Assembly (NCBI RefSeq): GCF_003014675.1
Contig: NZ_PYAU01000001.1
Span: forward strand, 3,224,001-3,288,000
Direction of reading: 5' to 3'
Source of the DNA: Labedella gwakjiensis
GTDB lineage: Bacteria; Actinomycetota; Actinomycetes; Actinomycetales; Microbacteriaceae
Length of the DNA stretch: 64,000 bases
Shown here piece after piece: positions 8,115 to 11,944 of this stretch. Positions within the stretch are counted from its first letter, which is position 1. The number at the start of each line of letters is the position of its first letter. The notes beneath the pieces are model-generated. The model did not search any database and had not been told where the DNA came from. It saw nothing but the letters and a program-made list of their open reading frames with translations. The position numbers and the translations under genes were made by a program.

Positions 8115-9392
8115 ATGGGTCTCCGCTATACCGTCCCGATCCTCATCGGCCGGCTGGCCCGGGCCGTCACGCGCGCGCGCGGTGGCGGCTCGGCCTATCC
8201 CGGCCACCTCGTCAACCGGCTCGCGCCGAGCTACCTCCCGAGCCTGCCGGATCAGCTTCCCGGCGGCGTCGTCTTCGTCCTCGGGTCGAACGGGAAGTCG
8301 ACGACCACCCACATGGTGTCGGAGGTGCTCAGAGCCCACGGGCTCCGCGTGTTCACCAACCCGACGGGGGCGAACCTCCCGCAAGGCGTGACGAGCGCCC
8401 TGCTGAGCGAGGTCAGCCTCACGGGCCGGCTCTCCGCCGACGTCGCCGTCCTCGAGATCGACGAGGCGTACGCCGTCAAGCTCGCGCAGACACTGCGGCC
8501 GTCGATCGTTCTGATGCTCAACGTCCAGGTCGATCAGCTCTTCCGGTTCTATGAGACCGAGCGTGTGGCCGACATGATGATCGACACCGGGGTGCTCGCG
8601 TCGACGAACGTCGTGACGAACCGTGAAGACCCCTACCTCAGCAAGGTCGGCCGCAAGATCGCCGGGGACCGCCCCGCCGTCAGCTACTTCGGCGCGAGCG
8701 CCGACGTCGTGGCGCGTTCCGCTCATGGCCTCGTCAACGCCGAGGACTTCCGCGATCCTGACGCCGTCGGGCACGTCGAGGCGGCGTCCGAGGTCGTCGG
8801 CTGGTCTGGCACCTCTGCATCGATCTCGATCGGCGGGGAGACGCTCGACGTCGCGCTGCCGGCACGCGGGCTCCACTACGCGGTCGACGCTGCGGCGGCG
8901 CTCCAGACCGCTCGCCTCGTGCTCGAGTCCCAGTTCTCGGCCGATCGTGCCGTCGAGGCCTTCCGCGTCATGCGGCCGGCGTACGGCCGCGGCGAGCTCC
9001 TTCAGTTCGGAAGCGAGCAGGTCGAGATCACGATGTTCAAGAACGGCGCGAGCCTGCAACTGAACCTCGACGCCTTCGATTCACCGCCAGAGCAGGTCCT
9101 CCTGGCGATCGATGAGGGTACCCCCGACATCTCCTGGATCTACGACGTCGACTTCTCGGCCCTCGATCACGTGGATGTCATCTCCGGTGCGAAGGGCTGG
9201 CAGATCGCCCTCCGCCTCGAGCATGCAGGGATCCCCGTCCACCACATCGAGCCGGACCTCAAGAAGGGCATCGAGATCATGCGCCGACTTCCGGCCCCGA
9301 CGACGGGCCGAAAGGCCTGGATCGTCAACTACGAGCAGATGATGTACGCCCGCAAGCTCGTGGGCCAGGGCGACATGGAGATCGCACGATGA
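8115..9392 (+). CDS. MurT-like Mur ligase (lipid II isoglutaminyl synthase subunit family), no zinc ribbon
   Basis: 425-aa Mur ligase. Canonical MurT activates the alpha-carboxyl of D-Glu in lipid II with ATP, and GatD supplies ammonia to make D-isoGln. The ATP loop GSNGKSTT is at residues 54-61, and the C-terminal DUF1727 segment with DISWIYDVDF keeps the conserved Asp region implicated in GatD cooperation. Oddity: the translation contains no cysteine, so the four-Cys zinc ribbon typical of MurT is absent; that region reads as Asp/Ala-rich filler. Start is ATG 8115, 4 bp after the sigA stop. It overlaps the next gene by ATGA, so the two are translationally coupled. Family assignment is firm; the donated nucleophile is unknown (see findings). 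Confidence 0.88.
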   Translation: MGLRYTVPILIGRLARAVTRARGGGSAYPGHLVNRLAPSYLPSLPDQLPGGVVFVLGSNGKSTTTHMVSEVLRAHGLRVFTNPTGANLPQGVTSALLSEVSLTGRLSADVAVLEIDEAYAVKLAQTLRPSIVLMLNVQVDQLFRFYETERVADMMIDTGVLASTNVVTNREDPYLSKVGRKIAGDRPAVSYFGASADVVARSAHGLVNAEDFRDPDAVGHVEAASEVVGWSGTSASISIGGETLDVALPARGLHYAVDAAAALQTARLVLESQFSADRAVEAFRVMRPAYGRGELLQFGSEQVEITMFKNGASLQLNLDAFDSPPEQVLLAIDEGTPDISWIYDVDFSALDHVDVISGAKGWQIALRLEHAGIPVHHIEPDLKKGIEIMRRLPAPTTGRKAWIVNYEQMMYARKLVGQGDMEIAR

Positions 9393-10138
9393 GCGTCGAC
9401 GGCGAAAACCTGGTCATCGCCCAGCTGTACCCCGACGAGCTCGGGGTGACGGGCGACAGCGGCAACGTGCTGGCGATATCGACGCGTCTCGAACGGGCGG
9501 GCGCGACCGTGACGGTCGTGCACCACCGGATCGGTGACGCGCTCGTATCCCGGCCCGACATCGTCGTGATCGGCAACGGGCCGCTGTCGGCCGTCCGCTC
9601 CGTGATCGACGACCTGCGGCGGATCGCACCAGACCTGACGGAGTGGGTCGCTTCGGGCCTGCCTCTTCTCGCGGTGGGTGCCGGGATGGAAGCTCTCGGC
9701 GAGAGCATCGTCACCCCGGACGGGGAGACGATCGACGGGATCGGTGTCTTCCCCCTGTCGACCGATCGCGCCGGAGCCCGCCACGCCGGGTACCTGGTCG
9801 TCGATTCGTCCGTCGGTCGTATCGTCGGCTTCGAGGACCACCGCACGGTCACCACTCGACGCGACGGTGCGGCTCCGTTCGGTCGTGTCACGTCCGGCGT
9901 CACCGGCACCGCGGGCTTCGAGGACGGCGTCCGCGTGTCCAACGCGATCGGCACGCGCGTCCAGGGGCCGGTGCTCCCGCTGAACCCCGTGCTGACCGAT
10001 TTCCTCATCGCGCGCGCCCTCGAGCGCCGTGGTCTCGACTGGTCGGCTGGCCCGTCGCACGCCGAACTGGACCGGCTCGCCGAGGAGGCGCGCGGCGTCA
10101 TCCTCGCCAACATCGATCACGTCTTCAGCACCATCTAG
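9389..10138 (+). CDS. GatD-like class I glutamine amidotransferase homologue lacking catalytic Cys and His
   Basis: 249-aa homologue of GatD, the glutaminase partner of MurT. It aligns along its whole length, including LGVTGDSGNV, TPDGETIDGIGV, VGFEDH and GPVLPLNP. The nucleophile elbow, normally ICGGYQ, reads VGAGME with Gly97 in place of Cys. The catalytic His before GP(I/V)LP is Gln192. The upstream GGGxDREQ motif is degraded to GNGPLSAV. It therefore should not hydrolyse glutamine. The reading frame is long and intact, so it is a remodelled protein rather than a fresh pseudogene. It overlaps the MurT-like gene by 4 bp and is followed after 10 bp by a racemase-like gene. A structural or regulatory role for the ligase is inferred. 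Confidence 0.85.
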   Translation: MSVDGENLVIAQLYPDELGVTGDSGNVLAISTRLERAGATVTVVHHRIGDALVSRPDIVVIGNGPLSAVRSVIDDLRRIAPDLTEWVASGLPLLAVGAGMEALGESIVTPDGETIDGIGVFPLSTDRAGARHAGYLVVDSSVGRIVGFEDHRTVTTRRDGAAPFGRVTSGVTGTAGFEDGVRVSNAIGTRVQGPVLPLNPVLTDFLIARALERRGLDWSAGPSHAELDRLAEEARGVILANIDHVFSTI

Positions 10139-10148
10139 CGGTCAGGAC

Positions 10149-10886
10149 ATGCGTCCCCTGCGGCAGTTGCGCGTCGTCGTCTCGGCGCTCGAGGAGAACA
10201 TCGCACGAGAGGCCCACCGTGCTGACGTCCTCGTCGACGTGACGGCCGACGCCTTCGGTCTCGGCGTCGACCGGGTCGCGGCCGCTGCTCGCGCCGCTGG
10301 AGTGCCGAGGCTGTTCGTGGCCACCATGGACGGTGCTCTGGCAACACGTCGACTCGTACCCGATCTCGAGATCGTGGTCGGTCGGGCGACTGCCGACCGC
10401 GGAGCCGAGCTCGACGAAGCGCGCATCTCGGTCGACCCTGCCGGCGGAAGGAGGATCGTGCGCGACGAGGTCTACGGCTTCGATGGACGCTCGCGCGTCA
10501 CAGCCTCCCTCCGCACCGAGGTGCTCTCGACGAAGCACATCAGGGCTGGCGACGGCGTCTCGTACGGGTACACCTACCGGGCGAGCCGGGACGAGTGCAC
10601 GGCCCTCGTCGCGCTCGGCTATGGCGACGGTGTCCACCGCCATGCGGGGAACGTCTCCACCGTGAGCATCGACGGCTCGGTCGCTCCCATCGTCGGACGC
10701 GTCGCGATGAATGTCTTCGTCGTCTCTCTCGGCGACCGCCTCGTCCGTCCCGGTGCGCCTGTGGTGCTGTTCGGTGACCCGGACGACGGGGATCCGGCCC
10801 TCGCGGACTGGTCACGCGCGCTGGGCGTGCAACCGGCGGCCGTCGTCGCCGGGATAGGGAACCGCGTGGAACGGGTGGAGTCGTGA
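10149..10886 (+). CDS. Alanine-racemase-like protein A: C-terminal catalytic-Tyr domain kept, PLP lysine and most of barrel lost
   Basis: 245 aa. Residues 8-80 match the first strands and helices of alanine racemase, but the PLP-lysine motif VVKADAYGHG reads DVTADAFGLG (Thr32 for Lys). About 150 residues of the barrel are missing. From about residue 115 on, the C-terminal beta domain is well conserved: GDGVSYGYTYRASRD carries the catalytic tyrosine equivalent Y139, then ALGYGDG, and VGRVAMNVFVV replaces the usual VGRVCMDQ. In alanine racemase dimers this Tyr acts on the PLP of the other subunit. The gene starts 10 bp after the GatD-like stop with AGGA ahead of ATG, and overlaps the next gene by GTGA. 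Confidence 0.82.
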   Translation: MRPLRQLRVVVSALEENIAREAHRADVLVDVTADAFGLGVDRVAAAARAAGVPRLFVATMDGALATRRLVPDLEIVVGRATADRGAELDEARISVDPAGGRRIVRDEVYGFDGRSRVTASLRTEVLSTKHIRAGDGVSYGYTYRASRDECTALVALGYGDGVHRHAGNVSTVSIDGSVAPIVGRVAMNVFVVSLGDRLVRPGAPVVLFGDPDDGDPALADWSRALGVQPAAVVAGIGNRVERVES

Positions 10887-11944
10887 ACGCCGATGTGTGG
10901 GCAGAGATAGACCTCGACGCGTATCGTGCCAATCTTCGGCGGGTCCGTGAGGCGGTCGCCCCCGCCTCGGCGATGGCGGTCGTCAAGAACGATGCGTACG
11001 GTCACGGCCTGAGACGGATCGTGGACGCAGCTGTGGAGGAAGGCGTCCGGTTCATCGGTGTGCTCGACCCGGCCGTCGGCGTCGAGCTGCGCCGGTCAGG
11101 ACTGCCGGACGATGTGCGGCTCTTCGCCTGGCTGTTCGGGCCCGAAGAGGACTATGCCGACGCTGTCGAGTGCGACGTGGAACTCGGAGTATCGAGTGAG
11201 CGTCAGCTGGAGCGCATCATCGAGACCTCCAATGGCAGGCCTGCGCGGATCCACGCCAAGATCGACACGGGACTCGGCCGTGCCGGGGCACGGCCCGAGG
11301 AATGGGAATCCCTGGTCGCCGCGATCGAACGCGATGCCGATGCCGGTGTCGTCGAGTTCGCCGGCGTCTGGACGCACATCGCGGAGGCGTCCGACGCGGA
11401 GGACACGCGGTCGATCATCGCGTTCGAACGGGCCGTACGTGCGGTCTCGGAGGGACGTCGGGCTGGTCTCCTCAGACACCTCGCGGCGAGTGCCGCGTCG
11501 TTCGCGCGCGCCGACAGTCGCTTCGATGTCGTCCGCGTGGGCGCCTTCGGTTACGGGATCGCTCCGGGGGACGGGATCACCCCGTCGTCCCTCGGCCTCG
11601 TCCCGGTGCTCTCCCTGCGCGCACGGATCGTCGCGATCGACGCATCCGGCCGCGGCGTCCTCTCGATCGGATCCGTCGACGGTCTGCCGGGTGAGGGGGT
11701 CGCGCTCAGCGTCGGTATCGACGGTCGTCGTGCGTCGATCGCCGTCGGTCTCGTCGAGTCCACGGTGACGGCCGACGGGGTGGCGGTCGGAGACGTCGTC
11801 ACGCTCTTCGGACGCGAGGGTCGCAACGAGCCGACCCTTCAGGAATGGGCCGATGCCACCGGCACGATCGGTGAGGAGATCGCGGTCCGGCTCTCTCCGC
11901 GCATCCCCAGGGTGACCGTGGACACCGTGGTCTCACACCCCTGA
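10883..11944 (+). CDS. Alanine-racemase-like protein B: PLP barrel intact, catalytic-Tyr segment deleted
   Basis: 353-aa fold-type III PLP enzyme. The barrel is complete: AVVKNDAYGHG with PLP lysine K35 and Y39, KIDTGLGRAG with the conserved Arg, GVWTHIAEASD, and DVVRVGAFGYG with the Arg that contacts the PLP pyridine nitrogen. The C-terminal domain is shortened by about 25 residues exactly where VSYGxTY and GYADG belong, and reads VLSIGSVDGLPGEG; the CMDQ motif is also gone. The domain still ends canonically with PTLQEWADATGTI and SPRIPRV. A homodimer would lack the catalytic tyrosine. GTG start overlaps protein A by 4 bp. The likely function is racemisation of an amino acid as an A/B heterodimer; substrate unknown. 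Confidence 0.85.
   Translation: MNADVWAEIDLDAYRANLRRVREAVAPASAMAVVKNDAYGHGLRRIVDAAVEEGVRFIGVLDPAVGVELRRSGLPDDVRLFAWLFGPEEDYADAVECDVELGVSSERQLERIIETSNGRPARIHAKIDTGLGRAGARPEEWESLVAAIERDADAGVVEFAGVWTHIAEASDAEDTRSIIAFERAVRAVSEGRRAGLLRHLAASAASFARADSRFDVVRVGAFGYGIAPGDGITPSSLGLVPVLSLRARIVAIDASGRGVLSIGSVDGLPGEGVALSVGIDGRRASIAVGLVESTVTADGVAVGDVVTLFGREGRNEPTLQEWADATGTIGEEIAVRLSPRIPRVTVDTVVSHP

Follow-up and report, generated by a model that had tools for sequence, protein, structure and literature searches.

Can two adjacent genes, neither of which encodes both catalytic bases of an alanine racemase (Alr), together specify one enzyme? The question is raised by two overlapping reading frames, A and B, in a 64,000-nucleotide stretch of Labedella gwakjiensis DNA (here called the window; Table 1). 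We propose that A and B are very probably the two subunits of a PLP-dependent amino-acid racemase of fold III that is obligately heterodimeric and has a single active site in place of two, a reading strongly supported by sequence evidence together with a natural fusion of the two genes; from these we infer that the proteins pair physically and that the pair is catalytic.

Table 1 Features of the A/B locus and its upstream neighbours in window coordinates.
Feature	Position	Strand	Remark
MurT-like ligase, P-loop motif GSNGKST	8115..9392	+	upstream of A, same orientation
GatD-like protein without glutaminase Cys and His	9389..10138	+	upstream of A
Protein A, 245 aa, ATG start	10149..10886	+	Ala racemase C-domain with Tyr139 and a shrunken, Lys-less barrel remnant
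Thr32 codon of A, at the PLP-lysine place	10242..10244	+	
A residues 119–243, Ala_racemase_C domain	10503..10877	+	expected trans donor of Y139, Y158 and M187
Tyr139 codon of A, catalytic	10563..10565	+	
GTGA, B start overlapping A stop	10883..10886	+	
Protein B, 353 aa, GTG start	10883..11944	+	full PLP barrel; C-domain without the catalytic-tyrosine loop
Lys35 codon of B, PLP Schiff-base lysine	10985..10987	+	
B junction D253/A254	11639..11644	+	18 columns including the tyrosine loop absent

Both proteins are Alr relatives by domain content, each containing the two Pfam domains above gathering score (the N domain of A and the C domain of B being partial), and the Streptomyces coelicolor alanine racemase (5FAC) is the best-scoring solved relative of both. 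Scores against TIGR00492 fall below the NCBIfam cut-off of 168 (100.4 bits for A, 161.6 bits for B), and neither A nor B carries the PLP lysine and the catalytic tyrosine in one polypeptide. In A, Ala_racemase_C is essentially complete (profile positions 2–126 of 127), with Y139 lying in VSYGYTY and Y158 in GYGDG, and Ala_racemase_N is represented by positions 4–89 of 220; the alignment of A proteins identifies Thr32 as the PLP-lysine position. Ala_racemase_N is complete in B (1–220 of 220), and Ala_racemase_C begins only at profile position 27. AlphaFold models of A (pLDDT 82.9) and B (pLDDT 87.7) both have alanine racemases as their best structural matches. Relatives were aligned to a canonical Alr model and fixed columns were read, the column numbers (K39, Y265 and so on) being those of G. 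stearothermophilus Alr; Tyr139 of A is the counterpart of Tyr265' in that enzyme. Window A has Y265, Y284, R290, R309, A311, M312 and N313, with nothing aligned at the barrel columns, and window B has K39, Y43, K129, R136, H166, S204 and R219, with the Y265 column gapped and the remaining C-domain columns degenerate. By the fixed columns, then, B carries the barrel-side residues and A those that act in trans.

The first-pass annotation of this DNA had described the locus in similar terms, and its coordinates, frames and GTGA overlap are exact, as are its placing of K35, Y39 and a whole barrel on B and of Thr32, Y139 and the GYGDG segment on A. Two of its estimates need adjustment. Of the gap of about 25 residues ascribed to B, the loss of the tyrosine loop stands and the size does not: 18 alignment columns are missing at the loop and 4 more at the C311–G314 columns, and a degenerate GSVDG still occupies the place of GYADG. 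The barrel of A is indeed shortened, the protein being about 125 residues shorter than the genome's own canonical Alr query (370 aa) rather than by the 150 residues suggested. Two other origins of the gene arrangement were considered and rejected. A and B are not one gene split in two, being two decayed paralogues, and a split through sequencing error or frameshift is rejected because both frames recur in many genomes.

To place these features in a wider set, A was searched against 299 genomes of the family and an alignment of B against 90 genomes of 84 genera, and named genome contigs were searched as well, the best 80 loci being kept. The resulting set comprises 63 pairs, from 53 genomes of 24 genus groups and from 10 named contigs, any of which may come from a genome already among the 53; duplicate loci of one genome were removed before counting, broken or contig-end matches (G007, G009, G012) were left out, and the counts describe the best-scoring matches rather than a family-wide frequency. 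Genes were typed by gene order alone, so that counting residues in them is not circular. In the first gene of the pair, Y265, R290 and M312 are each present in 63/63 and the Y284 column holds Y in 58 and F in 5, with K39 in none of the 63. The second gene retains K39, Y43 and R136 in 63/63 each, and Y265 occurs in 0 of the 61 complete ones, two second genes (L036/G112 and L070/G177) being cut by contig ends, which leaves 61 in which loss of the tyrosine loop can be tested. Carriers include Microbacterium testaceum StLB037, M. kyungheense, M. aoyamense, M. resistens and a Gulosibacter. Complementary residue sets are therefore kept together in every pair record (61 for the B tyrosine loop), which bears out the earlier argument that such reciprocal losses exceed what chance would give.

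The pairs are not one uniform type. A is full length yet Lys-less in G267, G080 and G008, and its C-domain is the sole alignable part in G001, G084, G085, G089 and G148, where the open frames continue upstream for another 39–358 residues that do not align. Of the 30 loci scoring best with the B model, 24 are split pairs and 6 are tandem pairs of full-length genes; 69 other records of the 146 examined, all best-scoring matches, hold a single full-length racemase, and in none of the 146 does either A or B occur without the other. One contig (L097), assigned by its label to an uncultured Cellulomonadaceae MAG, also has A/B, with MurT/GatD-, rpoD- and gyrB-like genes nearby; either A/B reaches outside the family or the contig label is wrong.

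How the residues are divided suggests how the pair would work. B would provide the barrel, PLP on Lys35 and the remaining barrel-side residues, and A would contribute in trans a C-terminal domain bearing Tyr139 as the second catalytic base together with entryway residues. The mirror-image site, built from the A barrel and the B C-domain, would have lost both catalytic residues and decayed; since both losses fall on this one would-be dimer site, the other would be left whole. Against such obligate pairing, B retains a C-domain and could still self-associate.

Two genomes from a single genus group carry A and B as a continuous open frame (766 and 729 aa). The first half of these fusions is A-like: its lysine column holds Ser or Asp, and its tyrosine loop is present. 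The second half is B-like, with the lysine present and the loop absent, so that the PLP lysine and the tyrosine are both held by one polypeptide, one in each half. These fusions bear on the alternative that survives best, in which B alone is a different PLP enzyme (aldolase-like or eliminating, its tyrosine gone), with A acting as a regulator or left as a remnant. The entire PLP side is present on B, and removal of Tyr265 from an alanine racemase can give retro-aldolase activity, both of which fit such an enzyme. We nevertheless regard it as improbable, as the fusions show the same partition of residues and A keeps Y265, R290 and M312 in all pairs while its barrel decays.

A and B are adjacent in all 63 pair records. 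The coupling of the two genes proposed from the GTGA overlap extends to the relatives: a start codon for B that lies 1 nt ahead of the A stop and yields a 4-nt overlap is found in 53 of 61 unfused pairs, a count based on the in-frame start nearest the A stop, which attests to the presence of such a start and not to its use. Pairwise distances of the A C-domain and the B barrel are correlated (0.73; partial correlation given GyrB 0.57), with none of 1000 permutations reaching as high a value (41 loci after thinning 48). Residue partition, overlap, the two fusions, the reduction of A to its C-domain in some genomes and co-divergence beyond that of GyrB together support the candidate obligate heterodimer of the first-pass annotation, on comparative grounds.

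Canonical alr is also present elsewhere in the window organism's genome, twice, as two other full-length genes besides A/B, and it follows that A/B is probably not the supplier of D-alanine. These genes allow a further alternative, in which B takes its tyrosine from a full-length cellular Alr, mixing of family subunits being conceivable, and A is either not needed or a partner for the barrels of canonical Alr. We judge this to be quite unlikely, less probable still than an independent B enzyme, because A and B are invariably adjacent, mostly overlapping, fused in two cases and co-diverging. That A/B is a functionless, decaying relic, as its fast evolution might suggest (mean distances 0.95 for A and 0.89 for B against 0.25 for GyrB), is the least credible explanation of all, given the open frames, the excess of third-position differences among codons in four genomes of the genus, where third positions differ most, and catalytic residues invariant in 63/63 records from 24 genus groups and 10 contigs.

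The proposed heterodimer has a partial parallel in eukaryotic serine palmitoyltransferase, a heterodimeric PLP enzyme in which, as in A/B, the PLP lysine is missing from one subunit and the two share one site. That enzyme is of another PLP fold type, without homology to A/B, and we know of no reciprocal loss of the second base in its partner subunit. Closer likeness is found in Alr itself (TIGR00492; S. coelicolor 5FAC, S. lavendulae 1VFH), which has in common with A/B the fold, the PLP lysine motif and two-base Lys/Tyr chemistry with the tyrosine coming from the partner subunit. That Alr subunits supply the tyrosine and entryway residues in trans is established, and the known Alr structures are homodimers with two equal sites (PMC3146814), whereas A and B each lack one base and a single site is expected. 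Among the open-access literature matches listed, none describes a split or heterodimeric alanine racemase.

A plausible source of the pair is provided by the tandem full-length racemase genes found in Curtobacterium, Herbiconiux and further genera of the family, in which both genes have both Lys and Tyr (14/14 each). Gene order is as in A/B; the tandem pairs are found at the canonical alr locus, next to glmS-, tsaB- and tsaD-like genes (names read from the sequences), whereas A/B lies between rpoD and gyrB. In a tree of the barrel, the second tandem copy groups with B (52 B and 12 second copies, SH-aLRT 95), the copies having been labelled by score in agreement with gene order in the tandem pairs compared. 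The C-domain tree places A with the first copy and the canonical Alr of the family at modest support, and an alternative that unites A with the second copy survives the AU test (p 0.252). Because tandem second copies fall inside the B group, either the loop was lost repeatedly or the tree is in error. A/B probably descended from two tandem full-length racemase genes, and the simplest course would be that the first copy gave rise to A and the second to B, with gene order kept and losses reciprocal.

If this is true, the duplicated subunits of a homodimer have here undergone reciprocal loss in nature. Several stages coexist, namely tandem full copies, a full-length Lys-less A, a short A, an A in which only the C-domain aligns, and the fusion, and with these stages surviving, one enzyme family could serve to test how interdependence of paralogues arises.

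In the window, an rpoD-like gene lies beyond MurT/GatD, and gyrB- and gyrA-like genes lie downstream (names read from the sequences). Of the 40 regions first fetched, 37 had split pairs, all 37 near a gyrB-like gene and 32 with an rpoD-like gene also within the fetched stretch; MurT/GatD was present in the fetched stretch at only 25/37 genome A/B loci and 4/10 contig A/B loci, which tells against the proposal. The MurT-like and GatD-like neighbours are homologous to the ligase and amidotransferase subunits of the MurT/GatD lipid II isoglutaminyl synthase, but the window GatD differs in having neither Cys nor His for glutamine hydrolysis: aligned with 5n9m, it has Gly at Cys94 and Gln at His189. 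Replacement of Cys94 or His189 by Ala abolished glutaminase activity in S. aureus GatD (PMC5871853). The catalytic Cys was found in 0/25 GatD sequences at A/B loci and in 0/19 of a second set, likewise from A/B loci, and in 25/25 from outside the family within the same order (all among the best 30 loci of 59 matching genomes). Loss of the Cys as a family-wide rule was rejected, as 10 of 48 sequences in a wider family set (best-scoring loci plus 20 chosen lower matches) have it; a second, Cys-bearing kind of GatD thus exists in the family, and we claim the loss only for GatD at A/B loci. Two genomes, G054 (L240, L268) and G066 (L244, L269), have two GatD genes each, one Cys-less and one with Cys.

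At eight loci without MurT/GatD (L069, L077, L078, L081, L088, L093, L112, L124), the gap between the rpoD-like gene and A is filled by CofE-like and ATP-grasp frames (8/8 by eye), with Pfam confirming the CofE-like frame in 2 and the ATP-grasp frame in 4. CofE-like proteins belong to the F420 ligase family and the ATP-grasp frame (PF14397) lies on the opposite strand; both are ligase families.

Clavibacter michiganensis, a member of the window organism's family, offers a hint of what such a locus might make. A study of its wall describes the position-2 D-Glu as bridged to D-Ala via D-2,4-diaminobutyrate (D-DAB), and also describes muropeptides with some D-Glu amidation in this group-B wall (PMC9603630); amidation is thus not absent from group-B walls, a point against the proposal. 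D-Orn is given for the M. testaceum wall in a report in which the wall diamino acid serves as a taxonomic marker (PMC10757982), and strain StLB037 of this species has A/B. The genus Microbacterium also includes L-Lys species, M. enclense being one according to PMC10757982, which counsels caution about a diamino acid. Taking the ligase neighbours, the D-DAB bridge and the M. testaceum wall together, we guess at a diamino-acid racemase feeding an amino-acid ligase, the substrate most likely being an L-diamino acid (ornithine, 2,4-diaminobutyrate or lysine) converted to its D-form for the group-B bridge. More tentatively, and with somewhat less than even confidence, the D-diamino acid from A/B may be joined by the Cys-less MurT/GatD (or by the CofE-like and ATP-grasp proteins) to the alpha-carboxyl of D-Glu for this bridge, the ligase adding an amino acid and not ammonia. 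No pocket residue of A/B identifies the substrate, and none of the literature matches listed gives genes for the group-B peptidoglycan bridge, for which A/B and its neighbours are candidates.

Two minor observations concern individual racemase residues. In window A, N188 replaces the Asp that most racemases have after the conserved Met; Asn stands there in 10/63 A proteins, and an Asn also aligns with N188 in the solved D322N variant of M. tuberculosis Alr (8ahw). The window organism's genome also contains a third racemase gene, full length and divergent (G000:C1:1377127-1378215; L002, L007), with Phe for Tyr43, His at the carbamylated-lysine column and Val at R309.
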